Source: Alphaproteobacteria bacterium
Lineage (GTDB): Bacteria; Pseudomonadota; Alphaproteobacteria; MPNO01; UBA2964
Assembly: GCA_012103315.1 (NCBI GenBank)
Contig: WLWZ01000010.1
Span: forward strand, 62,001 to 126,000
Reading direction: 5' to 3'
Length of the DNA: 64,000 nt
Shown here: piece by piece, positions 4,204 through 44,111 of the stretch
How the letters are laid out: each line of letters opens with the position of its first letter
How positions within the stretch are numbered: position 1 is the first letter of the stretch
Notes under the pieces: model-generated
Seen by the model: only the letters and a program-made list of their open reading frames with translations
What the model was told of the DNA's origin: nothing
Database searches by the model: none
Made by a program: the position numbers and the translations under genes

Positions 4204-5193
4204 ATGCAGTATCGTGAATTTGGGCATTCTGGAATCAAGCTATCCCGCATCGGGCTTGGCTGTTTCAGTATGTCTGGCGCATACGGTGCGGCGGATGATG
4301 ACGAGTCGATTGCGACAATTCACCAAGCAATGGAACGTGGTGTCAATCTGCTCGATAGCTCTGCGCGCTATGGTGGGGGGCACAATCACCGACTGATCGG
4401 CGAAGCAATTAAGGGACGCAGAGACCAGATCTTTATCCATTCCAAGACCGGGACAATTCGAGATTCTAATGACCGTAGTGTCGCTGAAGGGAGCGGTAGG
4501 CCAGACCGGTTGCGCCAAATTTGCGAAATGAGTCTGAAGAATCTTGGCGTCGATTATCTTGATGCGATGTGTCAGTCGCGTGTCGATCCGTCAATTCCAA
4601 TAGAGGAGTCCGTCGGTGCAGTGGCGCGTTTGGTCGAAGAGGGCAAGGTTCGTTTTATTGGATTGTCAGAGGCGGCGCCGGATACCGTGCGTCGCGCCTC
4701 AAAAGTGCATCCAATTGTTTCTCTGCAGTACGAATATTCCTTATGGACCCGCGATGTTGAAGAGGGACATCGCGATGCGTGTGACGAGCTGGGCATGGCG
4801 CTGATGGCCTATGCACCACTTGGGTATGGTTTTTTGGCTGGCGTAATTGATAAAGCAGGCTCTCAGTCAGAAGACGACATACGGGGAAAATTCCCTAGGT
4901 TCTACGAAGAGAACTTTGACGCCAATCGTCAACGCGTTGCTCGACTGGAGTCTGTGGCCGCTGATAGGGGCACGACGGCGGCGCAAATCGCCATTGCCTG
5001 GGTCCTGGCGCAAGATGATAGTGTATTTCCGATACCAGGCTGTAAAAGCCGCAAGCATCTTGATGAGAATCTCGATGCTGTTGATATCGAACTTACGTCA
5101 GAAGATATCGTGCGATTGGATGAGATATTTCCGAAAGACGCTGCTGCTGGGACGCGGTATCCGCCCGGCGGTATGCAACGGGTAAATTTATAA
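4204..5193 (+). CDS. Aldo/keto reductase
   Basis: SRIGLGCFSMSGAYG, LLDSSARYGGGHNHRLIGEAI, HSKTG and IPGCKSRKHLDENL motifs. Confidence 0.9.
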   Translation: MQYREFGHSGIKLSRIGLGCFSMSGAYGAADDDESIATIHQAMERGVNLLDSSARYGGGHNHRLIGEAIKGRRDQIFIHSKTGTIRDSNDRSVAEGSGRPDRLRQICEMSLKNLGVDYLDAMCQSRVDPSIPIEESVGAVARLVEEGKVRFIGLSEAAPDTVRRASKVHPIVSLQYEYSLWTRDVEEGHRDACDELGMALMAYAPLGYGFLAGVIDKAGSQSEDDIRGKFPRFYEENFDANRQRVARLESVAADRGTTAAQIAIAWVLAQDDSVFPIPGCKSRKHLDENLDAVDIELTSEDIVRLDEIFPKDAAAGTRYPPGGMQRVNL

Positions 5194-5208
5194 ATCCAAA
5201 TATTTGAA

Positions 5209-7239: not shown

Positions 7240-7274
7240 GTGACTAGAACCATCTCTGGATGGGCCATTTGTTA

Positions 7275-8837: not shown

Positions 8838-8958
8838 TAATTTTCAATATTTATCTTGCGGATAAGTATGTCCAAAATTGAATCCATCCGATAGGTCCGT
8901 TGACGCCAGCTCGCGAAAAGCCAACGATTGATACCGATCTGAATTTGGGAGGGGCGCC

Positions 8959-9696
8959 ATGGTGAGTGGACAGATACGCGGGCATCGTGCGCGCATTGGC
9001 TACACGGTGGCCGCCGTAACAACTGAGGTCTATCCAATTGATTGGTATCGCGTTGTTCCGGACGGGGTGTCACTAATGATGATTACCCTGCCACTGGGCG
9101 AACGATCTCCGGAAGACGTCGAGAAGTGCTATCAGATTTCAATTGAGGCGGCGCACACCATGGCGCGCGCTGGCGCAGACCTTGTCCTGTTGGGAGGGCT
9201 GCCGATCAATATTTCAAAGGGGGATGATACGGTTGAGGTGTTGATGCAAGAGCTGGAGGCCGAAATCGGCGTGTCGATGTCGTGCTCTGCCCTTGCGCAG
9301 GTCAACGCCTTTGCAGCGTTGGGATCCCAGAAAGTGAGTATCGTTCATCCGTTTTTAGAGGATCAAAGTCGGCGTCACGCAAATCACATGAGTGGCTTCT
9401 TTGGTTTGGAGCCGACAGGTGTATTTGCGGGTGGTTCCAATCTCGTTGCCCTTGGAACTTTGCCGCCAGATCGTGCACTTGAATGGGGCCGCGCGGCGAT
9501 GGCGGCCAATCCGGACGCTGATACGCTTTATTTTGGCTGCCCGCATTGGACGGTGATTGATGCTATTCAACCGCTAGAAGACGAATTCGGCGTCAACGTG
9601 ATGACGTCATTACAGGCAATTGCCTGGGAATCGATGCGCAAAACCGGTGTCGACGATCGTATCGAGGGCTTCGGTCGATTGCTCAGCGAGTTTTAA
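8959..9696 (+). CDS. Arylmalonate decarboxylase / maleate isomerase-like (Asp/Glu racemase superfamily) protein
   Basis: RARIGYTVAAVTTEVYPIDWYRVVPDGVSLMMITLPLG and TLYFGCPHWTVIDAIQPLEDEFGVNVMTSLQAIAWESMR. Confidence 0.75.
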   Translation: MVSGQIRGHRARIGYTVAAVTTEVYPIDWYRVVPDGVSLMMITLPLGERSPEDVEKCYQISIEAAHTMARAGADLVLLGGLPINISKGDDTVEVLMQELEAEIGVSMSCSALAQVNAFAALGSQKVSIVHPFLEDQSRRHANHMSGFFGLEPTGVFAGGSNLVALGTLPPDRALEWGRAAMAANPDADTLYFGCPHWTVIDAIQPLEDEFGVNVMTSLQAIAWESMRKTGVDDRIEGFGRLLSEF

Positions 9697-10397
9697 GCCC
9701 TGCTGGTTGGGGTTGAAGCGACATTAACCATTGGCTTGTCGTCGGGGAGTAATTCGCCCTTATAACGGCTAATGTTCCAAGCAAGGGTGATCCGTGGACG
9801 ATCGCCTGTATAGGGCGTGACGAAGTGCACAAAGGCCGATGGCCAGATGAGCATTTTTCCGTTTTCCGGACCGATATAGGGACGTGTTGTGACGTATCCC
9901 TGTTCATCGCTACAGCAGATTTTCATGCGTGGATCGGCAAAGGATAAACGACCCGCGAGTTCATCATCAGGGTCTGGGTCGCCAACATCCAGAAAATACA
10001 CCAGACTCGCGACGCTTAAGCGATGAGAATGCGGCACCGCATAATCCCATTTGTAATAGAGGTTCGCCCAACTGAGGTCGATATTGGCGGTTTGTTCGTT
10101 GAGCAACCGTTTGAAGAATTCCTTGGCGCGTTCGCTAATCAGGTCGGCTGCGGGACAGTCCCATTGCTCTAGGTGGTGTACCTTTTTGCCGCCCAATGTC
10201 CGCGAGTCAGGCTTGCTGTTGCCCCATTTTATTTCTTCCAACTCGTGCGCGCGCGCTATCAACGGGTCGTGATAGTCAGCCCAATCTTTAAACACCGCTG
10301 CATGCAAATGTTCGTCGATAACCTCGACACGTTGATCTTCATACCAAACTGGAATGTCTTTATCGCCGACACGAACTGAATTGGGAGAGTCTGTCAC
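9693..10397 (-). CDS. Putative 2OG-Fe(II) oxygenase (TIGR02466-like)
   Basis: SWANLYYKWDYAVPHSHRLSVASLVYFLDVGDPDPDDELAGRLSFADPR ... MLIWPSAFVHFVTPYTGDRPRITLAWNIS; H-x(n)-H-x(n)-R pattern of DSBH oxygenases. Confidence 0.7.
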   Translation of the reverse strand: MTDSPNSVRVGDKDIPVWYEDQRVEVIDEHLHAAVFKDWADYHDPLIARAHELEEIKWGNSKPDSRTLGGKKVHHLEQWDCPAADLISERAKEFFKRLLNEQTANIDLSWANLYYKWDYAVPHSHRLSVASLVYFLDVGDPDPDDELAGRLSFADPRMKICCSDEQGYVTTRPYIGPENGKMLIWPSAFVHFVTPYTGDRPRITLAWNISRYKGELLPDDKPMVNVASTPTSRA

Positions 10398-10574
10398 TGA
10401 GCTATTTACCTAATTTTCTTGCCTGAGGTTGATTTTGCCTCAATAAAATTCGGTTCACAACTCAGCTATTTGTCTACATAGAGTTTGCGGCATTTCTATA
10501 ACATATTGTCGGCGTATAATGATTTCGGTCGGTATCGATTGGCGTTTCGAATAGGCGATTCAATTTTCTAAGAA

Positions 10575-11471
10575 ATGAAACTGGTGAAAACAGTGTCATC
10601 CACAATATCTATTTCTCCGCGTCGCAATGGCATTGGTGCCGAGATATCCGGTGTTGATCTGTCGCAGCCATTGGATGATGACGCGTTCAGTATTATTTCG
10701 AATGGCTTCCAACAACATCGGCTTCTGGTATTTCGGGGCCAGAACCTGTCGGTTAAGCAGCAAGTCGCTTTTAGCGAAAGGTTTGGAAAACTTGAAGATT
10801 TTCCGGACCCTAAGGATCAAGCGGATGGCTATAAGACCGTTCTGAGGGTTTCGAATATTGATCGAGCAACGGGGAAAATCAAACCGGTAAACGATCCCGG
10901 GCACAAATCCTTCACGTTGGGGACGTCTTCCTGGCATATCGATAGCTCCTTCAGAACTGTGCCGTCTCTCGCGTCAATGCTCTACGCTATTGAGATGCCG
11001 GAAGAGGGCGGCGATACAATGTTTGCCGACACCACGGCTGCTTATGATGCTCTGCCCGAGAACCGTCGAGCGGCCCTTCATCAACTGATGGTCGTTCACG
11101 ATTTCGAGGAAACCCGACGACGTCACAAACTGCCACCGCGCCCACCTGAAGTGCAAGCTGCGACACCACCGGCGCGTCATCCGCTGGTGACTGAAAGGGA
11201 AAATGGGCGGCGGGCATTATTCCTGGGATCGCACGCGGCTGGTATTGATGGGATGAACTATGAAGAAGCGCGGGCGTTTCTGGATGATCTCGAGGTAGAG
11301 GCAACGAAGCCGGAATTTACCTACCGACACCAATGGTCGAGCGGGGACTTATTGTTGTTTGATAATATTTGCGTCATGCACCAGGCGATGCCTTACGACC
11401 TTGCCAACTCGCGCCGCTTACTACATCGGACGACTGTCGCCGGCGACAAACCGCTTGCCAGCGTTGAGTGA
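10575..11471 (+). CDS. TauD/TfdA-family Fe(II)/2-oxoglutarate dioxygenase
   Basis: LGTSSWHIDSSFRTVPSLASMLYAIEMPEEGGDTMFADTTAAYDALP; LLLFDNICVMHQAMPYDLANSRRLLHRTTVAG. Confidence 0.88.
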   Translation: MKLVKTVSSTISISPRRNGIGAEISGVDLSQPLDDDAFSIISNGFQQHRLLVFRGQNLSVKQQVAFSERFGKLEDFPDPKDQADGYKTVLRVSNIDRATGKIKPVNDPGHKSFTLGTSSWHIDSSFRTVPSLASMLYAIEMPEEGGDTMFADTTAAYDALPENRRAALHQLMVVHDFEETRRRHKLPPRPPEVQAATPPARHPLVTERENGRRALFLGSHAAGIDGMNYEEARAFLDDLEVEATKPEFTYRHQWSSGDLLLFDNICVMHQAMPYDLANSRRLLHRTTVAGDKPLASVE

Positions 11472-11505
11472 AAAATCACGTAAATATTCTGAAACTGGAA
11501 TTAAC

Positions 11506-11582
11506 TGGTCGGAGTGAGAAGATTTGAACTTCCGGCCCCTGCCTCCCGAAGACAGTGCTCTACCAGGCTGAGCTACACTCCG
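11506..11582 (-). tRNA. tRNA-Pro(CGG), CCA encoded
   Basis: Minus strand CGGAGTGTAGCTCAGCCTGGTAGAGCACTGTCTTCGGGAGGCAGGGGCCGGAAGTTCAAATCTTCTCACTCCGACCA folds as a cloverleaf: CGGAGTG/CACTCCG acceptor, TTCGGGA anticodon loop, GTTCAAAT T-loop. Confidence 0.93.
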
Positions 11583-11663
11583 ACCGCGGCCGGATATATA
11601 GCCCTGCGCGCGAGATACGGCAAGCGTAGACGCTCGTTGGTCTAATTAGAATGTAGTCGTAGA

Positions 11664-29832: not shown

Positions 29833-30783
29833 ATGCCACGCAAATCGATGAGTAAGGAATTTCGGCGGCTCCTGACGGACAATGAGGTGATCGTGAAACC
29901 AGGTGCCCATAATGCGTTGAGTGCCAAGATCATCGAGGCAGCTGGGTTCCAGTCCTGTGGTGTGTCTGGCTATGCGGTTTCCGCAACATTGCTCGGTAAA
30001 CCAGATGTTGGGCTGATAACCCTTGATGAGATGGTGATGATGTCGCGCTATATCGCTGGGGCGGTGAATATTCCGGCGATTGCCGATGCCGACACCGGCT
30101 ATGGTAATGCGATTAACGTCATTAGGACCGTTGAGGACTTTATCCGGGCGGGTGTGGCCGGCATTCATATTGAGGATCAGGTCGCGCCAAAACGTTGCGG
30201 CCATGTCGCCGGTAAACAGATTATCCCCTTAGAAGAAGCAGCGGGGAAGTACCGCGCCGCTGCGAAAATCCGTGATGAACTTGATCCTGATTTTGTGTTG
30301 ATCGCCCGAACTGATGCCCGCGGTGTGGCGGGCGGGTCCGTCGAAGCGGTTATTGAGCGATCCAAAGCCTACATCGATGCCGGGGTGGATATGATTTTCC
30401 CTGAGGGGCTGACCAGCAAAGAAGAGATTGCTGAAGTTTGTGCCAGGGTAGATGCACCTATTCACTACAACCGCACTGGTGTATCGCCCATGCTGACACT
30501 CGAGGAGCTCGATGAGATGGGCATCGCCATGGTGAGTTTCGCGACCGGCGCGTTGCGGTCTGGCGCGCGAGCGATGTGGGATTTTATGCATGAGTTTAAA
30601 GAGAACGACGTCGCGTGCCAGAAAGCGTTTTTGGCTGAAGTAAAAGATCATCCGGTAGGCGACATTCATGCCTTTATGGGGTTTGATAAGATACGCGAAC
30701 TAGAAGAAGCGTTTTTGCCAAGTGAAGAAGTCCTGGCAAAATACGAAGGGTCGGTTGGTTTTATGCCAACGACAGAGAAATAG
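29833..30783 (+). CDS. Isocitrate lyase/PEP mutase superfamily C-C lyase (2,3-dimethylmalate lyase / methylisocitrate lyase-like)
   Basis: PGAHNALSAKIIEAAGF, ADADTGYGNAINVIRTVEDF, IHIEDQVAPKRCGH (K-R-C-G-H lyase signature), RTDARG. Confidence 0.87.
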   Translation: MPRKSMSKEFRRLLTDNEVIVKPGAHNALSAKIIEAAGFQSCGVSGYAVSATLLGKPDVGLITLDEMVMMSRYIAGAVNIPAIADADTGYGNAINVIRTVEDFIRAGVAGIHIEDQVAPKRCGHVAGKQIIPLEEAAGKYRAAAKIRDELDPDFVLIARTDARGVAGGSVEAVIERSKAYIDAGVDMIFPEGLTSKEEIAEVCARVDAPIHYNRTGVSPMLTLEELDEMGIAMVSFATGALRSGARAMWDFMHEFKENDVACQKAFLAEVKDHPVGDIHAFMGFDKIRELEEAFLPSEEVLAKYEGSVGFMPTTEK

Positions 30784-30795
30784 GGGAATGCCGCG

Positions 30796-32049
30796 ATGGG
30801 CATGACAGCAATTGAAAAAATTCTGGCCAAGAATTCCGGTCAGGACGTGGTGAAGCCGGGAGACCTGGTTGTCGTTCAGGTCGGTACGGCGGTTCTCTAT
30901 GATAATAATTTTGCGCCTTCGATCTGGCGCGACATTCTCAAAATTCATGATCGCGAAAAAGTTGTCGTGGTGTTTGATCACCGGGTTCCCGCCAAGGATA
31001 TCGTCAGTGCAACGGCGCAAAAGATCGGCCGAGATTTTGTCAAAAAATTCAATATCGAGAGATTTCATGATGTTGGTGCCAAACAGGGCATCAGTCATGT
31101 TCTGATCGCCGATCATGGCTATGCGCTGCCGGGGTCTGTTCTGGTGTGTGGCGACTCGCATACCTGTAGTGCCGGGGTGTTCAATTGTGCGGCGAGAGGA
31201 ACCGGCGCACCGGACATGTTTTATGCCGTGACCAAGGGTGAGACATGGTTCCGCGTCGGCGAGACGATCCGCTATGACTTTGAAGGCAAACTAAACGCGC
31301 CGGTCTCAATGAAAGACGTGTTTCTTCATATCGCCGATACTTACGGGTCGCATGCCAATCAGAATGTCGAGTTCGGTGGTGGGGCACTGCCTGGGCTGTC
31401 AATTAATGCGCGGCGAACCATGACAACAATGTGCGCGGAATTGTCAGCAGAGTTTGCAACCTTTGAACCCGATGAGGTGATGCTGGACTATGTTCGCGAA
31501 CGCAATCCAGCACCATTCGAAGCGCAATACCCAGATGAAGATGCGACTTATCTAGATCGCCGCACGATCAATTTGGGTGAGATGGAACCGTTGGTCGCAT
31601 TGCCGGATACCGTTTTGGAGAACTCTCAAAAAATTGGCGAGGTCGCGGGTACGCAAATCAACCAGGCGTTCATCGGTTCCTGTGCCAATGGCACGTTGGA
31701 TGATTTTGCGGCAGCGGCAGCAGTGCTGAAGGGCAATAAGGTTTCTTCGGATGTCCGTTTAATCGTCACGCCGGGGACCCAGAACATCTATCTGGAGGCA
31801 CTCCGTCACGGTTACGTTGAAACATTGATTGAGGCTGGCGCGGTGGTGACCAACGCGACATGTGGCGCTTGTGGTGGTGGGCATCTCGGTATTCTTGCGG
31901 CAGGAGAAAGTTGTATTACCGCAAGCACAAGGAACTTCAAGGGACGCATGGGTGATCCAGATTCCAAGGTTTATATGGGTTCCCCCGCAACCGTGGCGGC
32001 CTCGGCGATTAAGGGAACAATCGCTGATCCTCGCGACTTTCTGAATTGA
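30796..32049 (+). CDS. Aconitase-family hydratase large subunit (LeuC/DmdA-like, short archaeal-type length)
   Basis: GDSHTCSAGVFNCAARGTGAPD, GSCANGTLDDFAAAA, TNATCGACGGGHLGILAAGE Fe-S ligand motifs; 417 aa. Confidence 0.88.
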   Translation: MGMTAIEKILAKNSGQDVVKPGDLVVVQVGTAVLYDNNFAPSIWRDILKIHDREKVVVVFDHRVPAKDIVSATAQKIGRDFVKKFNIERFHDVGAKQGISHVLIADHGYALPGSVLVCGDSHTCSAGVFNCAARGTGAPDMFYAVTKGETWFRVGETIRYDFEGKLNAPVSMKDVFLHIADTYGSHANQNVEFGGGALPGLSINARRTMTTMCAELSAEFATFEPDEVMLDYVRERNPAPFEAQYPDEDATYLDRRTINLGEMEPLVALPDTVLENSQKIGEVAGTQINQAFIGSCANGTLDDFAAAAAVLKGNKVSSDVRLIVTPGTQNIYLEALRHGYVETLIEAGAVVTNATCGACGGGHLGILAAGESCITASTRNFKGRMGDPDSKVYMGSPATVAASAIKGTIADPRDFLN

Positions 32050-32060
32050 GGGACGAGGTT

Positions 32061-32561
32061 ATGGAGTTCACTGGCAAAACCTGGAAATTCGGCGACAACA
32101 TCAATACCGATTTGATCCTGCCCGGGCGCGCACAGCTTTTTACCGAGGAAGAACAATTGCGCTGCGTCTTTGAAGCCAATCGTCCCGGGTGGATTGACGA
32201 GGTTGCCAAGGGTGATGTTCTAATCGGCGGTCATAATTTTGGCATGGGGTCATCGCGACCTGCCGCGCGATCCCTGCGCAATACCGGTCTTGCTTGCATG
32301 GTCGCGGAATCGATTAACGGTCTATTCTATCGCAATTGCGTCAATTGGGGTTTCCTGGCGCTAGAATGTGAAGGCATTTCGACGGCCTTTGAAGAAGGTG
32401 ATGAAGCAAAGGTCTCTTTCGAAGATTTTACTGTCACCAACAACCGTACGGGTGACGTGTTGCAGGGGCGTGTTGTTCCTGAAGTTTTGCTCAATACGAT
32501 GAAAGCGGGCGGTGTGTTACCTTTGCTTGAGGCCGAAGGCTTAATCGCGGCGGCAGAGTGA
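32061..32561 (+). CDS. Aconitase-family hydratase small subunit (LeuD/DmdB-like)
   Basis: WKFGDNINTDLILPGR, GGHNFGMGSSRPAARSLRNTGLACMVAESINGLFYRNCVNWG. Confidence 0.86.
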   Translation: MEFTGKTWKFGDNINTDLILPGRAQLFTEEEQLRCVFEANRPGWIDEVAKGDVLIGGHNFGMGSSRPAARSLRNTGLACMVAESINGLFYRNCVNWGFLALECEGISTAFEEGDEAKVSFEDFTVTNNRTGDVLQGRVVPEVLLNTMKAGGVLPLLEAEGLIAAAE

Positions 32562-32595
32562 CGGCTACAGTATTTTAGAGCTATTGGAGATAGAT

Positions 32596-33381
32596 ATGGC
32601 GACATCAGCAATTTCATTACATGAAGACGAGTCTTTGCGCGGCAAGGTCTCAGAGGCAGAATGGGATGCACGGGTGCAGCTCGCCGCAGCGTTTCGCATT
32701 TGTTATGCCAATGGTTGGAATGGCTCGACTGCTAATCATATGACCGCCCGTGTGCCGGATGAACCAGAGCATTTTCTGATGAATGCGTCAGATTTTGCGT
32801 GGGACGAGATTACCGCCTCGAACCTTCTCAAGCTTGATCATGATGGCAAGGTGCTGAGCGATACAGATCGCAAGCCGCGCCCTGCCGGGCTAAATTTTCA
32901 CAGCGCGATTCAGCGTGAGATGCCGCATATCGATTGCACGATACATCTGCACCCGAAGGCCGGCGTTGTGGTATCCGCGATGAAAGAGGGTCTGATGTTT
33001 TTTGATCAGGGATCGTGTTCGGTCTATGGCCAGGTCACCTATCACGACTTTGAAGGCATTGCCCAGGAAGCGGACGAAGCGCCGCGTATTCTCGCTGACC
33101 TTGGTGATAAATATACCATGATCATGCGCAATCACGGTCTGCTGACAGTTGGTCGAACCATTGCAGAAGCGATGGCTTTTATGGGACGGCTGGTCGGTGC
33201 CTGTGAAACCCAGGAACGTCTGCTGGCAACGAATGCAACGCCTGTGCCGTTGTCCAAGGAAGTCTGCGAATTTACCGTTTCGCAAATTGCTGGCCGGTCA
33301 GGTAATGCCCCAATTGGCGATACCGATTGGCAGGCGCAGTTCCGGCGGCTGGTCCGCCAGGATACGTCTTTTATGGCTTAG
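32596..33381 (+). CDS. Class II aldolase/adducin family protein
   Basis: CTIHLHPKAGVVVSAMKEG, MIMRNHGLLTVGRTIAEAMAFMGRL. Confidence 0.87.
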   Translation: MATSAISLHEDESLRGKVSEAEWDARVQLAAAFRICYANGWNGSTANHMTARVPDEPEHFLMNASDFAWDEITASNLLKLDHDGKVLSDTDRKPRPAGLNFHSAIQREMPHIDCTIHLHPKAGVVVSAMKEGLMFFDQGSCSVYGQVTYHDFEGIAQEADEAPRILADLGDKYTMIMRNHGLLTVGRTIAEAMAFMGRLVGACETQERLLATNATPVPLSKEVCEFTVSQIAGRSGNAPIGDTDWQAQFRRLVRQDTSFMA

Positions 33382-33994: not shown

Positions 33995-34666
33995 CTATAG
34001 GGCAGGCGTTTGCAGGGTGGCGCAATCATCCGCGAAGATAAGTTCTGCCCCTGTTATGTCGTTGAGGTCATCATAGGAGATGCCGTCGGCAATTTCGCGG
34101 ACGGTGAAGCTGTTATCCCGGACGTCAATCAGTGCGTGATCTGAATACACACGGGTGACAACGCCGGTGCCAGTGAGCGGGTAACTACACTGTTCGAGCA
34201 GCTTGGCCTGTCCGTCTCGTGTGCAGTGATCGGTAATGACAAATACGTCTTTGGCACCAACCGCGAGATCCATCGCGCCACCAACGCCGGGCGGTCGGGA
34301 GTTGTCCAACGTCGCCCAGTTGGCGAGATCACCGTTCTGTGCAATCTGAAAAGCACCGAGCACGCAAATATCGATATGGCCGCCGCGGATCATTGCGAAG
34401 GAGTCTGTGTGATGCGAAATGCTGCCGCCATTGAGCAGCGTAACCGGTTTTTTGCCAGCATTGATGAGGTCAGGGTTTTCCTCTCCAGGGGGCGGTGTTG
34501 GCCCCATTCCCAGCAAACCGTTTTCGCTATGGATGATCACTTCGCGGTCGTCGGGCAGATAGTTGGCGACCATTTCGGGTGCGCCGATACCGAGATTTAC
34601 ATAGGCGCCTTCGGGGATGTCCTGCGCAACGCGCCAGGCGATTTGTTTGCGGTTCAGTCTGGCCAT
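33995..34666 (-). CDS. CoA-transferase subunit B (3-oxoacid/3-oxoadipate type)
   Basis: YVNLGIGAPEMVANYLPDDREVIIHSENGLLGMGPTPPPGEENPDLINAGKKPVT (ENG active-site motif). Confidence 0.92.
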   Translation of the reverse strand: MARLNRKQIAWRVAQDIPEGAYVNLGIGAPEMVANYLPDDREVIIHSENGLLGMGPTPPPGEENPDLINAGKKPVTLLNGGSISHHTDSFAMIRGGHIDICVLGAFQIAQNGDLANWATLDNSRPPGVGGAMDLAVGAKDVFVITDHCTRDGQAKLLEQCSYPLTGTGVVTRVYSDHALIDVRDNSFTVREIADGISYDDLNDITGAELIFADDCATLQTPAL

Positions 34667-34668
34667 GA

Positions 34669-35337
34669 TCAGCTCGCCTCTACTTCCATAACCCGGTCGA
34701 CATAAATGCCCGGTGTGATGACCTGTTCAGGATCAATTTCACCCAGTTCGACAAACCGGTCGACCTGCACGATGGTGGTATCGGCGGCCATCGCCATGGT
34801 TGGTCCGAAGCCACGGGCGGATAGGTTATAGGTCAGATTGCCCCAACGGTCTGCTTCACGTGCTTTAAGAAAAGCGAATTCCGCGGTCAGCGGATATTCG
34901 AGGACGTAATCTTCGCCGTCGATAGTGCGAACCTCTTTGCCCTCTGATAGCGGCGTGTTGACTGAGGTGCGGGTATAAAACCCGCCAATCCCGGCACCGC
35001 CAGCGCGCATGCGTTCACTCATTGTGCCCTGCGGAACGATCTCAAGTTCCAGAAGCCCCGCAGAATAAAGTTCTTTGGTGATTTCTGAATTGGATGAGGT
35101 TGGAAAGGAACAAATCACCTTGGCGATCCGCCTCTCTTTGAGGAGCAAGATTAGACCACGTTCGCCCTCTCCAGCGTTATTGGAAATGATCACCAGATCA
35201 CGGTAGCCGCGGTCGAGGACGGCCTCCAGCAACTCCTGAGGTGCGCCGGCGGCGCCGAACCCGGCGGACATGATGGTCGCGCCATCTTTCATCCCGTCGA
35301 GGGCGGTATCAAAGTCGTAAACGCGTTTGTCGATCAT
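34669..35337 (-). CDS. CoA-transferase subunit A (3-oxoacid/3-oxoadipate type)
   Basis: ATIMSAGFGAAGAPQELLEAVLDRG, SNNAGEGERGL, GGIGGFYTRTSVNTPLSEGKE-type region. Confidence 0.92.
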   Translation of the reverse strand: MIDKRVYDFDTALDGMKDGATIMSAGFGAAGAPQELLEAVLDRGYRDLVIISNNAGEGERGLILLLKERRIAKVICSFPTSSNSEITKELYSAGLLELEIVPQGTMSERMRAGGAGIGGFYTRTSVNTPLSEGKEVRTIDGEDYVLEYPLTAEFAFLKAREADRWGNLTYNLSARGFGPTMAMAADTTIVQVDRFVELGEIDPEQVITPGIYVDRVMEVEAS

Positions 35338-35482: not shown

Positions 35483-37138
35483 ATGATGGCCAGTTCGCCC
35501 AAAAAAGCCGGTTATCCGGACTTTCACGAGCATTTGCAAAAGCTCGATGATGCGGGATTGCTCACGACAATTGAAGAGCCCGTTAATAAAGATACGCAGC
35601 TGCACCCGTTGGTCCGCTGGCAGTTTCGCGGTGGTATTCCTGAAGAACAACGCAAAGCATTTAAGTTCACCAACGTTACAGACAGTCTTGGACGTTCTTA
35701 TGACATGCCGGTGGTTGTCGGCGCGCTATCGACTAATGCCGAGATGTACTCGATTGGCATGGGGGTGCCGGTTGAGGAAATCGGTGACAAGTGGAACGCC
35801 GCGATGGCCAATCCCATCGACCCGGTAACAGTTGAAGATGCGGCGTGCCATGAAATTGTTGTTACTGGTGATGATCTGAAGGGGGACGGTAAGGGGCTCG
35901 ATGGCTTGCCGGTACCGATCTCTACACCGGGCTATGATTGTGCGCCTTATTTAACAGCGACCAACGTCACGACCAGCAATCCCGATACTGGGACCCAGAA
36001 TATGGGGACCTATCGCGCTGGGCTTAAAGCGTCAGATCGTTTAGCGGTGCGAATGGTGTCACGACCGGGTGGTGCCGAAGGTCATATGCATTGGGAAATG
36101 TATAAAAAGCGCGGCGAGAAAATGCCATGCGCCATCGTCGTCGGGTGTCCGCCGTCGGTTGCCTATATGGGGCCGCAAAAGCTACCGGTCGGTGTTGAAG
36201 AAATGGCGGTCGCGGGCGGTGTCGTCGGTGAACCGATCCATCAGGTAAAGTGCAAGACCATCGATATTATGGTGCCGGCAGAATCCGAGATCGTCTTCGA
36301 AGGCCTCGTTGATACCGAGTATCTCGAACCCGAAGCGCCGTTTGCTGAAAGTCATGGCCATGTCGCGTTAGAGGATTTCAATACCGCGATGGATGTCACC
36401 GCGATCACGATGCGTAAGAATGCCGTCTTCACCTCGATCATTTCTCAGCTAACACCGTCTGAATCCAGTGTCATCAAGCGCGTGGCTTATGAACCGCTTT
36501 ATATGTCGCATCTGCAGGATGGGCTGGGGATCAAGGGTGTCAAAAAGGTTTATCTGCATGAGAACCTGACCAACCTTCGCCGTATCCTATTCATCCAGTT
36601 TGAACGCGGTGTGCCGACCACCGAAGTTTGGCGGGCGCTCTATGGCGCCTCTGCGTTGGCGGCAGCGATTGGTAAATATGTTGTCGCCGTTAATGAGGAC
36701 ATCGATCCCAGCAATGGCGATGCGGTGTTCTGGGCTTTGGCCTATCGCGCGAACCCTGCGCTCGATGTTCAAATATTAAAACATCGGGTTCCCTATGGTC
36801 CGAAGGATAAGCGGTCGCCCAACGGTGAAGACTCGACGCTTCTAATTGATGCGACACTGAAATCTGACATGCCACCAATCGCATTGCCCAAGAAAGAATA
36901 TATGGAACATGCCGCCAAGCTGTGGGAATCGCTGGACTTGCCGCCATTAGCTCCGGAATCGCCGTGGCATGGCTATTCGCTGGGCGACTGGAGCGATGAG
37001 TGGGATGAGATGGCCAAGCGCGCGGCTGAGGGGAACTACATGGAGAATGGTCGCCGCAGCGCCCAACTCCGCCGCAACGATGTCTTCCCCAATACCTCGA
37101 TCCGTGAGGTGCCGGGCAATCCGTTTGAGGATAAATAG
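35483..37138 (+). CDS. UbiD-family prFMN-dependent decarboxylase
   Basis: GTQNMGTYRAGLKASDRLAVRMVSRPGGAEGHMHWEMYKKRGEKMPCAIVVGCPP and LEPEAPFAESHGH, matching the UbiD R...E...E positions. Confidence 0.92.
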   Translation: MMASSPKKAGYPDFHEHLQKLDDAGLLTTIEEPVNKDTQLHPLVRWQFRGGIPEEQRKAFKFTNVTDSLGRSYDMPVVVGALSTNAEMYSIGMGVPVEEIGDKWNAAMANPIDPVTVEDAACHEIVVTGDDLKGDGKGLDGLPVPISTPGYDCAPYLTATNVTTSNPDTGTQNMGTYRAGLKASDRLAVRMVSRPGGAEGHMHWEMYKKRGEKMPCAIVVGCPPSVAYMGPQKLPVGVEEMAVAGGVVGEPIHQVKCKTIDIMVPAESEIVFEGLVDTEYLEPEAPFAESHGHVALEDFNTAMDVTAITMRKNAVFTSIISQLTPSESSVIKRVAYEPLYMSHLQDGLGIKGVKKVYLHENLTNLRRILFIQFERGVPTTEVWRALYGASALAAAIGKYVVAVNEDIDPSNGDAVFWALAYRANPALDVQILKHRVPYGPKDKRSPNGEDSTLLIDATLKSDMPPIALPKKEYMEHAAKLWESLDLPPLAPESPWHGYSLGDWSDEWDEMAKRAAEGNYMENGRRSAQLRRNDVFPNTSIREVPGNPFEDK

Positions 37139-37140
37139 TA

Positions 37141-39474
37141 GTGTCTGATCTTGCGACAGGTATCGGCGCGGCAGTCCCGCGCGTTGAAGATCGTCGCCTG
37201 CTGACCGGGCAGGGGCAATATAGCGACGATATTAGCCACTCTGATCAGGTCTATGCCGTGATGGTGCGCTCGCCGCATGCCCATGCGGAGTTGTCTGGTA
37301 TTAATGCCGATGTCGCGAAGACAATGCCCGGTGTGCTGGCAGTGCTCAGCGGTGCGGATTGGCGCAGTGACCGACTCAAACCGATGCCAGCCTGGGGCAA
37401 CCCAAAAGATGTAGAGCTCACCAATCGAGACGGTTCTGATATTTTTTACACGCCGCTTTATCCGGTAGCGGTCGAGCGCATCCGTAGGGCCGGTGAAATC
37501 GTTGCTGTCGTGGTTGCAGAATCCGAAGCGCAGGCACGCGATGCCGCCGAGACCATCGAGATCGATTGCAAGGTGCTCGACAGCGTCATCGATGGTGTGT
37601 CGGCGATGGAAGAAGGCGCGCCACAGCTGTGGGATGAAGTGCCAAACAATCTTAGTGTTGATGACATCAAGGGCAGCGAAGAAGCCTGTGATCTTATTTT
37701 TGCGACGGCACCACACATCGTTCGGTTGGAGACGTTTAACCAGCGGGTAACCGGTGTGCCGATGGAACCGCGTGCTGCGCTTGGCGAATATGACGCGGAG
37801 AAAGATAGCTTTTCGCTCGAAGCGGGCGGACAGGGCGTCATCCGGTTTCGCAATGAACTATCGGCAACATTCGGTGTTGATGCGGCGAACATGCGAGTGG
37901 TGTCGCGGGACGTTGGCGGTGGCTACGGCACGCGCAATCACACCTATCCTGAATTCGCTCTCGTGTTGTGGGCAGCCAAGCGCACTGGCAAGCCGGTCAA
38001 ATGGGTTTGCGACCGGTCGGAGGCTTTCCTGAGCGATTATGCCGGGCGCGATCTGTTAACCCGCGCAGCGCTGGCGGTGGATGACAATGGCAAGTTCTTG
38101 GCCCTTAAGACTGAGAACATCGCCAATCTCGGAACGCACACGGTTTCCTATGTGCCGCTTGCGCGGGGACCGACAGTTTATAACGGGGTCTATGATATTC
38201 CTGTCGGCTATGCCGTGTCGCAAGGTGTGCTGACCAATACGACAGCGACGGCGAGTTATCGCGGCGCCGGACGACCGGAATCGATGTTCCTGATTGAGCG
38301 GCTCGTTGATATGGCGGCGCAGGAAACCGGCATCGACCGGATATCACTACGGCGGCGTAATATGATTCCCGAAGTCGCCATTCCCTACACCAACGCGTTC
38401 GACGTCACTTACGATAGCGGGATTTTCTCGGTCAGTATGGAACGCGCGATGGCGTTGGTTGACTGGGACGGGTTCCCGGCGCGCCAAAGGGCGGCAAAGA
38501 AAGAAGGCCGCCTTGTTGGTATTGGACTGGCCAATTATATCGAGACGGCAACCGGCTACCCTCATGAACGCGCTGAGATGGAAATCCTGCCAGGCGGCCG
38601 TGTCGATCTCGTTCTCGGTACCCAATCGTCGGGGCAAGGCCATGAGACGACCTATGCTCAGGTGGTTTCGGAGTGGCTTGGTGTACCGTTCGATAGCGTG
38701 ATGCTGCGAACGGGTAACACTGATTTCGTATCGGCGGGGTCGGGCTCGCATTCATCGCGGTCCATGCGTTTGGCAGGACATCTCTATCGTCAGACAATCG
38801 AAGAGATCGTTGCCAAGGGCAAAGAGATTGCCGCTTTTGCTTTGGAGGCATCTGTACAGGACATTACTTTCTTGGAAGGGCGTTTCAAGATTGAGGGCAC
38901 CGACCGTGCATTGCATCTGTTTGACGCGGCAGCGGCGGCGGTCAGTGGCGATCTACCGGATGATTTGTCGGGTCCGTTGCGGTCCGAAATCGAAATTATG
39001 GATTCCTTGCCCGCCTACCCAAATGGTTGTCATGCCATCGAGATCGAAATCGATCGCGATACTGGCGTTGTCACAATCCTGCGTTACGGCGGTGTTGATG
39101 ATGTTGGTCGTGTGATTAATCCGATGCTGGTAGATGGCCAGACACAGGGCGGCATCGTTCAGGGTGTAGGTCAAGCACTGTGTGAAGAATGTGTCTATGA
39201 TCCTGAGAGTGGCCAACTATTGGCTGGGTCTTTTATGGACTACTGCATGCCGCGTGCGAGTGACGTTCCGTTCTTTGCGCTAGAGAATAATGTCGTTCCG
39301 GCGACCAATACCTTCCTGGGTGTGAAGGGTGGGGGTGAAGGCGGTACGACGGCTGCGCCGCCGGCGCTGATTAATGCTATCGTTGATGCTCTTTCTGACT
39401 TTGGTGTTACGCATATCGATATGCCTGCAACACCTCAGAAAATATGGCGCTTGATCCAAGAAGGCGAAGGCTGA
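37141..39474 (+). CDS. Xanthine dehydrogenase-family molybdopterin-binding (CoxL-like) subunit
   Basis: VEDRRLLTGQGQYSDDI, TGVPMEPRAALGEYD, VGGGYGTRN, SYRGAGRPESMFLIERLVD, GVKGGGEGGTTAAPPALINAIVDAL; GTG start. Confidence 0.94.
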   Translation: MSDLATGIGAAVPRVEDRRLLTGQGQYSDDISHSDQVYAVMVRSPHAHAELSGINADVAKTMPGVLAVLSGADWRSDRLKPMPAWGNPKDVELTNRDGSDIFYTPLYPVAVERIRRAGEIVAVVVAESEAQARDAAETIEIDCKVLDSVIDGVSAMEEGAPQLWDEVPNNLSVDDIKGSEEACDLIFATAPHIVRLETFNQRVTGVPMEPRAALGEYDAEKDSFSLEAGGQGVIRFRNELSATFGVDAANMRVVSRDVGGGYGTRNHTYPEFALVLWAAKRTGKPVKWVCDRSEAFLSDYAGRDLLTRAALAVDDNGKFLALKTENIANLGTHTVSYVPLARGPTVYNGVYDIPVGYAVSQGVLTNTTATASYRGAGRPESMFLIERLVDMAAQETGIDRISLRRRNMIPEVAIPYTNAFDVTYDSGIFSVSMERAMALVDWDGFPARQRAAKKEGRLVGIGLANYIETATGYPHERAEMEILPGGRVDLVLGTQSSGQGHETTYAQVVSEWLGVPFDSVMLRTGNTDFVSAGSGSHSSRSMRLAGHLYRQTIEEIVAKGKEIAAFALEASVQDITFLEGRFKIEGTDRALHLFDAAAAAVSGDLPDDLSGPLRSEIEIMDSLPAYPNGCHAIEIEIDRDTGVVTILRYGGVDDVGRVINPMLVDGQTQGGIVQGVGQALCEECVYDPESGQLLAGSFMDYCMPRASDVPFFALENNVVPATNTFLGVKGGGEGGTTAAPPALINAIVDALSDFGVTHIDMPATPQKIWRLIQEGEG

Positions 39475-39493
39475 AGCAAACGGAGGTAAGACC

Positions 39494-40432
39494 ATGAATA
39501 TTACCGGTATTCACTCACTTGTTTATGGCTGTGAAGACATCGAAACGGCGAGCCGATTTCTGACCGATGTTGGCATGGAGTCTGATGACGGCCAAACATT
39601 CGGTTTGGCCGATGGGACTTCTGTTGTTCTCAAGCGCGCCGATGACAATAGTCTGCCAACAGCGCCGGTTGACGGCGACACCGCACGGGCGATTATCTGG
39701 CGGGTTGATAATCAGGATACGCTGAAAGCAATAAGCGACGAGTTGTCGAGCGATAGAGATGTTACCGAGACATCGGATGGCGTCCTCCATGTCAAAGACG
39801 ATATGGGATATGCGCTGGGGTTTCAGGTGGCAGAAACAAATCCGATTAAATTTACTGCACCCGTGACCAATACAATTGGAGATCGCAAGCGCTTTAACAC
39901 ACGCGCTTCTGGCACAGAGGTTATAACGCCTAAGTTACAGCGCACCGCCCATGTCGGTTGCTGGGCACCAGGGGACGTCGATGAAAACAAGACGTTTTAT
40001 GTCGACCGTCTGGGTTTTCGGGAAACTGATTACATCAAAGATATTGGTGTGTTTTTAAGGGCGCCTGGTTCATCGGAACATCACGACATCTTTTTGTCTC
40101 GTCGCGGTGACCGGGCTGGCTTTCAGCATGTTGCCTACGAAGTGAAAGACTTCGACGAAGTGATGTTCCTTGGCTCACATCTTGAGGCACAGGGTTGGGA
40201 AACTCATTTCGGCCCGGGGCGGCATATCTTTGGCTCGAACATCTTCTGGTATTTCTGGAATCCGGCAGGTGGCTTGCTTGAAATCACCGCTGATCTGGAT
40301 TCTATCGATGATGAGTGGGAAATGCGCTATCACGACACCTTGCCAAAAGGCGCAGGGACCTGGCTGGCGCGGCCTGTAGATCAACAACGCATTCCGTTTC
40401 GCACCCGCGAACAAGACGCAATTATTGAATAA
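39494..40432 (+). CDS. Two-domain VOC protein, extradiol (catechol 2,3-) dioxygenase-like
   Basis: Two VOC modules (ITGIHSLVYGCEDIETASRFLTDVGM and LQRTAHVGCWAPGDVDENKTFYVDRLGFRETDY...FWYFWNPAGGLLEITADLD). Confidence 0.82.
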   Translation: MNITGIHSLVYGCEDIETASRFLTDVGMESDDGQTFGLADGTSVVLKRADDNSLPTAPVDGDTARAIIWRVDNQDTLKAISDELSSDRDVTETSDGVLHVKDDMGYALGFQVAETNPIKFTAPVTNTIGDRKRFNTRASGTEVITPKLQRTAHVGCWAPGDVDENKTFYVDRLGFRETDYIKDIGVFLRAPGSSEHHDIFLSRRGDRAGFQHVAYEVKDFDEVMFLGSHLEAQGWETHFGPGRHIFGSNIFWYFWNPAGGLLEITADLDSIDDEWEMRYHDTLPKGAGTWLARPVDQQRIPFRTREQDAIIE

Positions 40433-40443
40433 GGAAAAACACG

Positions 40444-41178
40444 ATGGCTGATAAAATTCTTTGTGAGAAAAAAGGCGATGCGACCCATATCACGCTCAAC
40501 CGTGCGGATTGTGGTGGGCTGGTAAGCGATCCCATGGCGTCTGAGATGGCAGATATGATCGATGCCGCAAACAATGACTCCAAATACATCGTATTCCGCA
40601 GCGCTGGTGATGATTTCTGTCTTGGTCGCGACCCGGAAGGCCGCGAACCGGGCAAAGCACCGGATGCTTTTGACGCACGCCGCCGTAGCGAAGTGGTGTT
40701 TAATTTTTATGGCTCATTCCGGCGGTCAAAGATTCCTGTTGTCGCGGCAGCGCAAGGACGCTCGCTTGGGTTTGGCTGCGCGATTGCTTCCGTTTGCGAT
40801 ATTACGATTGCGGCGGAAAGTGCGCGGTTTGCACTGCCTGAAATGGGTCACAACATCATGCCGACTATGGCGATGTCCTCACTCGTTGATCGGGTGGGTC
40901 GCAAAGGCGCCTTGTACCTGACCTATTCAACGGAAGAGATTGATGCCGAGACGGCTCTCTCCTACGGTCTGGTTAGCCGAGTGGTTGCTGATGATAAGCT
41001 CGATGCCCAATTGGAGATGGTTTGCGCAGCCATAGATAAAGCTCCCATGCCTGCTGTGCTTTCGGTCAAGGAATACGCGACCAACGCTCTGACGATGTCG
41101 GTCGAACAGGCGTCAGATTTCGCCCGTAACATGCATTCAGCAGTGAACACATCAGCAGGAATGATGGGGAATAAGTAA
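40444..41178 (+). CDS. Enoyl-CoA hydratase/isomerase family protein
   Basis: IVFRSAGDDFCLGRDPEG, VVAAAQGRSLGFGCAIASVCDITIAAESARFALPEMGHNIMPT. Confidence 0.9.
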   Translation: MADKILCEKKGDATHITLNRADCGGLVSDPMASEMADMIDAANNDSKYIVFRSAGDDFCLGRDPEGREPGKAPDAFDARRRSEVVFNFYGSFRRSKIPVVAAAQGRSLGFGCAIASVCDITIAAESARFALPEMGHNIMPTMAMSSLVDRVGRKGALYLTYSTEEIDAETALSYGLVSRVVADDKLDAQLEMVCAAIDKAPMPAVLSVKEYATNALTMSVEQASDFARNMHSAVNTSAGMMGNK

Positions 41179-41184
41179 CACTGG

Positions 41185-41790
41185 ATGCCGATACTCTATG
41201 ACGACCCAATCTCGGGAAACGGATACAAGGTGCGCTTGCTTCTGGCGCAGCTTGATTTTTCCTATGAGCTGGTTGAGCTGGATATCCTGAATCAGGAAAC
41301 CCACACGCCCGACTTTCTGGCGAAGAATGCGAACGGTAAAATTCCAACGATTGAGTTGGATGACGGACGCTGCCTGTCGGAATCCAATGCGATCCTGTTC
41401 TATTTCGCGCAAGGGTCGCGCTATTGGCCGGGTGAGAAATTTGATCAAGCGGATGTCATGCGCTGGATGTGCTTCGAGCAATATAGCCATGAGCCTTACG
41501 TCGCTGTCGCGCGGTTTCTCCATCATTTGCCAGAAGCGCCCGATCCAGAGGTGATTGCCGAAAAACATGCGAAGGGTTACGTCGCGCTAGATGTCATGGA
41601 ACAGCATCTCGGCGAAAACGATTTCTTTGCTGCTGGTCAGTATTCTATCGCGGATATTGCGCTCTACGCCTATACGCATGTCGCAGAGGAAGGAAAGTTT
41701 GATCTCACTTCCTATTCGAATATTTCCAAATGGTTGGACCGGGTAAGTGAGCAGCCGGGCTTCGTGCCGATGGGGTCTAAACCAAACTAG
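41185..41790 (+). CDS. Glutathione S-transferase family protein
   Basis: MPILYDDPISGNGYKVRLLLAQLDFSYELVELD...NGKIPTIELDDGRCLSESNAILFYFA. Confidence 0.92.
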   Translation: MPILYDDPISGNGYKVRLLLAQLDFSYELVELDILNQETHTPDFLAKNANGKIPTIELDDGRCLSESNAILFYFAQGSRYWPGEKFDQADVMRWMCFEQYSHEPYVAVARFLHHLPEAPDPEVIAEKHAKGYVALDVMEQHLGENDFFAAGQYSIADIALYAYTHVAEEGKFDLTSYSNISKWLDRVSEQPGFVPMGSKPN

Positions 41791-44111
41791 ATCTGTGCTT
41801 CTTGTATCGCCTGCCAGACACGATGCGGAGTGGCGGGCATCTCGATATCTCGTACACCGAGATCATAGAGGGCATCGACAACGGCATTGATGATCACCGC
41901 TGGAGCGGGAGTGGTGCCGCTTTCACCACCTGATTTAACGCCGAGGGGATTTTGCGGGCTGATAACCTCGTGATAGGTCACTGAAAAGAACGGCATGTCA
42001 TCGGCGCGCGGCATCGCGTAGTCCATGAATGAACCGGCGTAGGGTTGTGCGGTTTCTTCATCAAAGAAACAACGTTCCATGAGGGCCTGACCAGCGCCCT
42101 GAACAATGCCGCCGTGGATTTGCCCGTCGACGATGAGTGGATTAATGACCCGCCCGACATCATCGACGGCCGTATAGCGTTCTAGCGTTACGGCACCGGT
42201 CTCCGGGTCGACGACAACTTCGCAGATATGACAGCCATTCGGGAAAACGGCTTCATGCATGATGTTTTTAAGTTCAGCATTGAGACCGCCCTGAAGCTCA
42301 TCCGGTAAATCCTCGCGTTCCGCCTCACGTGCCAACGAGAACCAATCGATGGTGCGGTCAGTGCCCTGTATGCGGAATTCACCGTCACCGAATTCAATGT
42401 CTTCAAAGGCTGCTTCCAAAACAAAGGCGGCAAGCGCTTTGCCTTTCTCAATGACTTGATTGGAGGCTAGAACGATGGCTGTTCCCGCCATACGCATCGA
42501 ACGCCCCGCATGGGATCCGTTACCTGCCTTGGCGACGTCGGTGTTGCCCTGCTGGATGAGGACCTTGTCGAACGGAATTCTGAGCCAGTCGGCGGCGACC
42601 TGGGCAAAGCTTGTCTCGTGACCCTGACCACTTGATTGGGTGCCCACAGCGACATGCACGCCGTCTGACAGGATGGAGACACAGGACCATTCCATTGGCG
42701 CGCCGGAGGATGTTTCGATATAGGGCGCGATGCCGATACCACGTTTGAGACCGCGGGTTTCGGACTCTACTCGCCGAGTCTCAAAATTTGCGTAATCAGC
42801 TTTCTCCAACGCGATATCGAGGGTGCGTTTGAACTCTCCACTGTCATACAGCATGCCTTGGGGGTTCTCGTAGGGAAGTTGATCTGGGCGGATCAGGTTC
42901 TTCCGCCGTAACTCGATGCGGTCAATGTCGAGTTCGCGGGCGGCGGTGTCGATCAACCGTTCGAGGGCGAAGACGCATTCTGGACGCCCCGCACTGCGAT
43001 AGGGGTTGGTCGGTGGCGTGTTGCTGACGACAGCACGTAGCCGTAGGGTCGCCGGTTCAATGTCATAGGGGCCGGTCGAGATGCCAGCGCCTTTGGCCAA
43101 TGGGGCAAAGGCGACAGTATACCCGCCTGCATTGCTGGTATTGCGCCCGCGCATCGCGAGAAATTTACCATCCTTATCGAGGGCCAATGACAGCTCGCTA
43201 ATGAGATCGCGGCCTTGCAAATCACTCAGCATGCATTCGCTGCGGTCAGCAGTCCATTTTACAGGGCGGTTGAGTGTTTTGGCCGCGTGGAGCAGGAGTG
43301 GGAATTCAGGATAGACCCGATTTCTGGTGCCGTAATTGCCACCAACGTCGCCACACACCACGCGCATGCGCTCATCCGGGACTCCAGCGAGGAGCGCAAG
43401 CTCTGAACGATGACGGAGAGCGCCGCCGCCACCGGCGTAAAGCGAATAGCTATCGGTGTCCTGATTGTAGTTTGCCAGTGCCGCGCGGGGTTCCATCGGC
43501 ACACCGGTGACCCGTCCAACATTAACCGTGAGGTTGACTATACGATCGGCATTCCGGAAAGCTTCTTCGGTTGCATTTGGATCGCCAAGATCACTATCGA
43601 CGCAGAGGTTATTCTCCAGATTATCCCATAGAAGCTCTGATTGGTCGGCACGTGCGGTATTCGCATTGGCGTCCATAACCTCATAGGTTACGTCGATGGC
43701 TTCAGCGGCATCACGTGCTTGTGCCAAAGTCTCGGCGATCACCATGACAACCGGTTCGCCAGCAAAATGAACCCGTTCTACGGGCAGCGGATATTGATCG
43801 CGCGCATGCGGTAGTCCACCACCCGGTGCGAACAAGGTCGGGTCGGTTCTGGCGCTCGGAATAGGATTGTTTTGTAGTGGTAGGAGGTCGGCATCTTGCC
43901 AGTCTTTGCCCGTTAGAATGAGCAAAACCCCTGGCATTTTCTGTGCCCGTGAGCGATTAATTCCTTTTATTTGAGCGTGGGCATGTGTTGACCGAAGCAC
44001 TGCGGCATAGGCTTGGTCCGGCATATTGCGATCATCGCTAAATTCCCCGGCACCGGTGATCAGGCGGAGGTCTTCATTGCGGACGATAGGCTGGCCAACA
44101 TTCTTGGACAT
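41787..44111 (-). CDS. Xanthine dehydrogenase-family molybdopterin-binding (CoxL-like) subunit, paralogue of 37141..39474
   Basis: PIVRNEDLRLITGAGEFSDDRN, RVTGVPMEPRAALANYN, VGGNYGTRNRVYPEF, PYRSAGRPECVFALERLID, GVKSGGESGTTPAPAVIINAVVDAL. Confidence 0.94.
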   Translation of the reverse strand: MSKNVGQPIVRNEDLRLITGAGEFSDDRNMPDQAYAAVLRSTHAHAQIKGINRSRAQKMPGVLLILTGKDWQDADLLPLQNNPIPSARTDPTLFAPGGGLPHARDQYPLPVERVHFAGEPVVMVIAETLAQARDAAEAIDVTYEVMDANANTARADQSELLWDNLENNLCVDSDLGDPNATEEAFRNADRIVNLTVNVGRVTGVPMEPRAALANYNQDTDSYSLYAGGGGALRHRSELALLAGVPDERMRVVCGDVGGNYGTRNRVYPEFPLLLHAAKTLNRPVKWTADRSECMLSDLQGRDLISELSLALDKDGKFLAMRGRNTSNAGGYTVAFAPLAKGAGISTGPYDIEPATLRLRAVVSNTPPTNPYRSAGRPECVFALERLIDTAARELDIDRIELRRKNLIRPDQLPYENPQGMLYDSGEFKRTLDIALEKADYANFETRRVESETRGLKRGIGIAPYIETSSGAPMEWSCVSILSDGVHVAVGTQSSGQGHETSFAQVAADWLRIPFDKVLIQQGNTDVAKAGNGSHAGRSMRMAGTAIVLASNQVIEKGKALAAFVLEAAFEDIEFGDGEFRIQGTDRTIDWFSLAREAEREDLPDELQGGLNAELKNIMHEAVFPNGCHICEVVVDPETGAVTLERYTAVDDVGRVINPLIVDGQIHGGIVQGAGQALMERCFFDEETAQPYAGSFMDYAMPRADDMPFFSVTYHEVISPQNPLGVKSGGESGTTPAPAVIINAVVDALYDLGVRDIEMPATPHRVWQAIQEAQI

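Follow-up and report, generated by a model that had tools for sequence, protein, structure and literature searches.

Gene organization of the cluster

The window, i.e., the whole stretch of 64,000 nucleotides that was analysed, has five + strand open reading frames between positions 35483 and 41790, separated by gaps of 2, 19, 11 and 6 nt. Coordinates, order and gaps were exactly those claimed in an earlier reading of the letters alone (the sequence-only reading), and its family calls (UbiD, Mo hydroxylase subunit, VOC, crotonase (ECH_1) and GST) were matched by profiles. The cluster is wider than this interval. On one side, the genes for a CoA transferase of class I (PcaIJ/ScoAB family; both subunits scored above the curated cut-offs) run divergently from UbiD; on the other lies the - strand gene for a second molybdenum large subunit (Mo2), which overlaps the GST stop codon by 4 nt. 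Both of these conserved neighbours, which point to CoA-thioester chemistry, had been missed before. The genes are as follows:

33995-34666 (-): CoA transferase subunit B (PcaJ/ScoB family); TIGR02428, 292 bits (cut-off, 244)
34669-35337 (-): CoA transferase subunit A (PcaI/ScoA family); TIGR02429, 310 bits (cut-off, 128); position conserved
35483-37138 (+): putative UbiD-family prFMN decarboxylase of a subfamily without characterised member; PF01977; R178/E284/E289; separate clade, 100/100
37141-39474 (+): Mo1, molybdenum large subunit of the XDH/CO-dehydrogenase family; PF02738/PF20256; SYRGAGR; catalytic Glu and Gln loop
39494-40432 (+): two-domain VOC, probable type I extradiol-type dioxygenase, accessory; PF00903; ligands; fold
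40444-41178 (+): crotonase-family member with only one catalytic Glu; PF00378 (ECH_1); E164-equivalent kept, E144-equivalent Ala
41185-41790 (+): generic GST, lineage-specific insertion; GST_N/GST_C; close to 3m3m, E 1e-59
41787-44111 (-): Mo2, second molybdenum large subunit, convergent; PF02738/PF20256; 49% identity to Mo1

The GTG start codon of Mo1 is located 2 nt after the TAG stop codon of UbiD, with GAGG about 10 nt before the GTG. From the gap of 2-3 nt and this motif, the translational coupling of the two genes that had been suggested is plausible; what was borne out is the tight spacing itself, which is also 2-3 nt in the congeneric loci L055, L056 and L058. Neither a [2Fe-2S] nor an FAD subunit is encoded adjacent to Mo1 or Mo2, no cluster-specific regulator or transporter was found, and the sites found in a promoter and terminator scan were no more numerous than in shuffled sequence. 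Farther out, a BisC-type reductase and a sodium:solute symporter are encoded.

Upstream, at positions 29833-33381 (+), genes for an ICL/PEP-mutase-like protein, the large and small subunits of aconitase and a class II aldolase are arranged in tandem. The set is reminiscent of a substituted-malate hydratase and lyase pair; it is kept in the congeners and, as a set, was not seen in the more distant locus L060 (see below).

Phylogenetic position of the UbiD homolog

The window UbiD matched PF01977 with an E value of 4e-47, and R178, E284 and E289 align with the R/E/E of the solved UbiDs, in agreement with the catalytic positions named earlier; by domain and by these residues, it is a putative prFMN (de)carboxylase. 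Placement in a subfamily, which had been proposed as a check, led as far as a deep separate clade (100/100, long stem) that has no solved member. The clade consists of 17 rows (seven UbiDs of the window genome together with homologs from Rhizobiaceae and Burkholderiales), and excluded from it are the other 30 paralogs of the window genome and HmfF, whose row in the tree is the aligned part only. Being without a characterised member, the clade would extend the known prenylated-flavin chemistry.

Among the solved UbiDs, the nearest by profile were HmfF/UbiD (6h6v/6h6x, which we take to be HmfF), followed by Fdc1. Phthaloyl-CoA decarboxylase gave the weakest of these matches, and this identity was rejected. 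The positions of HmfF H296 and R304, presumably the pair that binds the second carboxylate in the enzyme of P. thermopropionicum, are Ser and Tyr in the window UbiD; an HmfF identity was ruled out by this replacement of His/Arg and by the tree clade, and, since the two residues are changed, furandicarboxylate is not predicted as the substrate.

Residues of the other gene products

Both Mo1 and Mo2 keep the catalytic Glu and the cofactor-loop Gln of the XDH family. The active-site motif is SYRGAGR in Mo1 and NPYRSA in Mo2, neither of which is the AYxCSFR of form I CoxL, and form I CO dehydrogenase was ruled out by the motif (model TIGR02416, 468 bits; cut-off, 991).

The VOC protein, for which a lack of metal ligands had been named as a point that would tell against the proposed route, keeps the ligands H153, H212 and E263; these and the second-sphere residues H196/H197, H244 and Y253 were invariant in 16 of 16 homologs. 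Its AlphaFold model (pLDDT 82) matched 3b59 and then many extradiol dioxygenases (BphC, HPCD and catechol 2,3-dioxygenase), and the best named model was HpaD (61 bits; cut-off, 321). From the predicted two-domain fold and the ligands, VOC is probably a type I extradiol-type dioxygenase.

The call of an enoyl-CoA hydratase did not hold in its catalytic residues, as one of the two hydratase glutamates is missing. The residue aligned with hydratase E144 is Ala in the window protein and either Ala or Gly throughout the eight homologs, and the equivalent of E164 is kept (numbering of rat ECH). A canonical enoyl-CoA hydratase was ruled out on these grounds, and the loss of the one Glu with retention of the other suggests an isomerase- or hydrolase-type member of the crotonase family.

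GST had been considered as an isomerase of maleyl-type products. With the maiA equivalog it scored 50.7 bits, far under the cut-off of 171, and its N-terminus, DDPISGNGYKVR, does not have the zeta SSC motif; a zeta GST (maleylacetoacetate or maleylpyruvate isomerase) was ruled out by these two results. The nearest solved structure, 3m3m, is a generic bacterial GST.

Conservation in the congeners

The genomes closest to that of the window come from uncultured marine Alphaproteobacteria and include the complete chromosome OX638326.1. All five congeneric loci keep the arrangement CoTB-CoTA / UbiD-Mo1-crotonase / Mo2 / BisC. The CoA transferase is divergent from UbiD in all of the congeners and also in L060, which has 72-81% identity and keeps CoTAB-UbiD-Mo1 up to the contig end. 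VOC is present in three of the six congeneric loci, with the window included (the two others, 88% and 83%), and is missing from L056, L057 and L059. Elsewhere in these three VOC-less genomes no close VOC was found, the best match (45-48%) being a paralog that the VOC-bearing genomes have as well. GST is missing from all five congeneric loci and is confined to the window genome; no relative above 32% was found in the six other genomes checked (next best, 31-32%).

Because the CoA transferase, UbiD, Mo1, the crotonase and Mo2 are kept in the congeners while VOC is absent from three of six loci and GST from all five others, the former constitute the core of the cluster and VOC and GST are accessory. 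A search for the same five-gene order in other genomes had been proposed as a check; in the congeners the order was recovered for UbiD-Mo1-crotonase, in some loci for VOC, and not for GST.

A VOC paralog with 47% identity at G000:C2:829069-829965 has an in-frame TAG stop codon, which probably marks a pseudogene or else an error in the assembly.

Recurrence of UbiD with Mo subunits and crotonases

Three other loci of the window genome (L051, L052 and L090) likewise combine a UbiD with Mo subunits and/or crotonases, although the sequences are divergent. In L052, UbiD is divergent from FAD-FeS-MoL-crotonase-amidohydrolases; in L090, a crotonase gene follows 17 nt after UbiD, and FeS and Mo genes are found within 10 kb. 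The order UbiD-OB/ChsH2-thiolase-MoL-CoA transferase III-crotonase was found in L051 (3703-11330) and, in another genome, in L069 (4438-11999). The crotonase was of the single-Glu type at every such locus tested. The L051/L069 operon is kept between genera and resembles a complete unit for the breakdown of an acyl-CoA.

These loci bear on a non-aromatic route, in which unsaturated acids of the acrylic or alicyclic type would be the substrates of UbiD (Fdc1-like chemistry) and Mo and crotonase would oxidise an alicyclic or side-chain acyl-CoA. Such oxidation has reportedly been proposed for carboxyl-rich alicyclic matter, and the OB (ChsH2) and thiolase-like pair is known from steroid side-chain cleavage. 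The presence of this pair in L051 and L069, the CoA transferases and the crotonase are in its favour, as is the fact that UbiD enzymes take both substrate classes (PMC7976604). However, the substrates of XDH-family Mo hydroxylases are mostly (hetero)aromatics, aldehydes or CO, some of the loci have a VOC with extradiol residues, and the UbiD profile is nearer to HmfF/UbiD (aromatic acids) than to Fdc1, so that we consider this route unlikely.

A same-strand run of UbiD-GST-luciferase-like monooxygenase-CobW-VOC-FAD-FeS-MoL-FAD oxidoreductase was found in L048 (4474-15763) and L050 (5714-17314), both of which belong to another family of the order (gene functions were annotated on L048); the Mo hydroxylase in it is complete. 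The identity to the window is 39-40% for UbiD and 38% for VOC, and the VOC and FAD genes overlap by 4 nt. Both runs were found through VOC and, being from the same genus, count as one independent case; even so, they are the best support for the grouping of UbiD, Mo, VOC and GST in the sequence-only reading, which they partly rescue.

That reading had envisaged a linear degradation of a (hetero)aromatic acid by UbiD decarboxylation, Mo hydroxylation, extradiol cleavage by VOC and, finally, isomerisation and hydration by GST and crotonase. Besides the runs in L048 and L050, the complete set of extradiol residues and the fold of VOC agree with it. On the other hand, the core remains intact in the three congeneric loci that have lost VOC without a close substitute, GST occurs in the window genome only and is not of the zeta/maiA class, and the crotonase has no hydratase E144; we therefore regard the linear route as improbable. 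The cluster is a real, conserved catabolic cluster, with its tight UbiD-Mo-crotonase unit and the VOC ligands and fold upheld, and the five-step ring-cleavage route, with an obligatory VOC and GST, a GST isomerase and a hydratase, was over-read.

On plasmids of Rhizobiaceae (Neorhizobium petrolearium OS53, Sinorhizobium meliloti LMB1 and S. fredii NGR234, the last placed by tblastn), UbiD lies between two Mo large subunits. This UbiD is 56% identical to the window UbiD in N. petrolearium and S. meliloti, and Mo2 has 50% identity to the N. petrolearium Mo subunit whose gene diverges from UbiD. In N. galegae, a Mo subunit is 50% identical to Mo1, and a crotonase gene is located 10 nt downstream. 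The Rhizobiaceae cluster (L106:6290-17441 of the N. petrolearium plasmid, L105 and L107; CoxM-FeS-CoxG-SBP-Mo / UbiD-Mo-GntR-UbiX) differs from the window in having its own CoxM, [2Fe-2S], CoxG, UbiX, GntR and transporter genes, and no CoA transferase or crotonase was seen beside its UbiD. No description of its function was found in the open-access literature searched. Sinorhizobium and Neorhizobium are culturable, and the substrate of a UbiD-Mo cassette could be found there by ordinary genetics.

A tandem of four UbiD genes from the window clade lies beside a divergent FAD-FeS-Mo set in L064 and L065 (about 4890-11635).

Proposed function

With slightly less than even confidence, we propose that the cluster encodes some steps of a CoA-linked route by which a carboxylic acid, either (hetero)aromatic or unsaturated in some other way, is catabolised. 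The CoA transferase would make (or recycle) the acyl-CoA; the Mo enzyme, with [2Fe-2S] and FAD subunits supplied from elsewhere in the genome, would hydroxylate a ring or unsaturated carbon with water; the crotonase would isomerise, open or hydrolyse the hydroxylated product; and UbiD, with prFMN from the single UbiX, would remove a surplus carboxylate. VOC and GST, as accessory enzymes, may let some strains use a wider range of substrates. The core order, the UbiD-Mo spacing and the catalytic residues of UbiD and the Mo subunits, all of which are kept, argue for the CoA-linked route, as does the recurrence in paralogous loci and Rhizobiaceae; the lack of an adjacent Fe-S/FAD subunit and the location of the CoA transferase on the opposite strand argue against it.

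UbiD might instead carboxylate, and thereby activate, the substrate for the Mo and CoA enzymes, as UbiD reactions are reversible (PMC7976604). The oxic marine habitat and the hydroxylating partner would favour decarboxylation, and no anaerobic carboxylase subunits were found nearby; we regard carboxylation as very improbable.

Comparison with known pathways

In the Hmf pathway for furfural and HMF (HmfABCDE and HmfFG; Cupriavidus basilensis and Pseudomonas), UbiD, CoA activation, the Mo hydroxylase HmfABC and a 2-oxoglutaryl-CoA hydrolase follow one another (PMC12064950, PMC6678421). The CoA-linked route resembles it in combining UbiD, CoA activation, a Mo hydroxylase and a hydrolase in one scheme, and HmfF is the nearest solved UbiD. 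The window differs in having a CoA transferase rather than the HmfD ligase, Mo without adjacent small and medium subunits, and the additional VOC and GST; no HmfD-type CoA ligase was found among the annotated neighbour genes. Membership in the Hmf pathway was ruled out by the UbiD clade, the residues and the missing ligase. Anaerobic phthalate degradation, with phthaloyl-CoA decarboxylase, likewise combines a UbiD with a CoA transferase, but the CoA transferase of the window is of class I, not class III, and a Mo hydroxylase is present in the window.

Expansion of UbiD and Mo large subunits in the marine order

The UbiD and Mo-hydroxylase complement of the lineage is exceptional and is more interesting than the single cluster. 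The window genome (G000; 4.1 Mb, 98% completeness) and genome G017 have 37 PF01977 matches each, and 25 of the 27 genomes of the order have 22-37; the two exceptions (9 and 1 UbiD) are small and estimated to be 71% and 67% complete. Among 299 sampled genomes of the phylum, none outside the order had more than three UbiDs, and among 386 genomes of the class the next most were 11-16 first-look UbiD candidates (best 7 scored). R-E-E/D is kept in 32 of the 37 UbiDs of the window genome. Most of them are only 20-30% identical to the window UbiD and are therefore old and diverse, not recent copies. Both G000 and G017 have a single UbiX-like gene; of the two PF02441 matches in G000, one is a 201-aa frame of UbiX size, and the other, of 420 aa, is CoaBC-like by size.

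Mo large subunits number 22-63 per genome across nearly the whole order, most of them without partner subunits. G000 has 41 Mo large-subunit matches versus 13 Fer2_2 matches, the number of [2Fe-2S] subunits is 13-14 per genome, G017 included, and 27 of the 41 Mo large subunits in G017 lie more than 5 kb from any Fe-S gene. The orphan large subunits may share electron-transfer partners.

In a genome so rich in both UbiD and Mo genes, the neighbourhood alone is weak evidence, and the window genes might be neighbours by chance or regulatory convenience and not form one pathway. The density of the two families in G000 is consistent with this, as is the genome-wide proximity of the two, hardly above expectation: 6 of the 37 UbiDs are within 3.5 kb of a Mo gene (2.4 expected; p about 0.05), and at 5 kb the difference is not significant. 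A general, genome-wide coupling of UbiD and Mo is not claimed in view of this weak enrichment, and the association is thus confined to certain subfamilies. However, the order and the spacing of 2-3 nt are kept over the congeners, and UbiD-Mo is found again in paralogous loci as well as in Rhizobiaceae, where UbiDs are few; a chance neighbourhood thus seems rather improbable.

Carboxyl-rich, ring-containing molecules dominate the long-lived dissolved organic matter (DOM) of the sea, and to our knowledge the enzymes that attack such matter are largely not known. It is possible, though we hold this with some doubt, that the order has an arsenal of prFMN decarboxylases and orphan Mo subunits in modular UbiD-Mo-crotonase cassettes, of which the window is one, and removes carboxyls from diverse carboxyl-rich or heteroaromatic DOM. 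Its wealth of CO2-removing UbiDs and of Mo hydroxylases that use water makes the lineage a direct and testable candidate for the attack on such matter.

From a relative named UBA2964, we guess that the host order is GTDB UBA2966 or one close to it. Genomes of UBA2966 have been reported both from ocean waters low in oxygen and among aromatic degraders of the Arctic (PMC8879329, PMC9789639); the word UbiD is absent from both papers. Neither the UbiD expansion nor the UbiD-Mo-crotonase cluster was found described in the open-access literature. In SAR202, ancient paralog expansions (monooxygenases, enolases and dioxygenases) are proposed to widen the use of resistant DOM (PMC6946804). The likeness is the expansion of catabolic families in uncultured marine bacteria, whereas the phylum and the enzyme families are different, and UbiD was not found in the SAR202 literature retrieved. 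Sponge symbionts also have many Mo large subunits per genome, as coxL (COG1529) expansions with an average of 29 in Tectomicrobia (PMC8941161), a paper in which UbiD does not appear.

One UbiD of the window genome appears to be split between G000:C9:69406-69780 and G000:C8:4-1281 (query residues 2-123 and 126-550). As the two parts lie at the end of C9 and the start of C8, these contigs probably adjoin.
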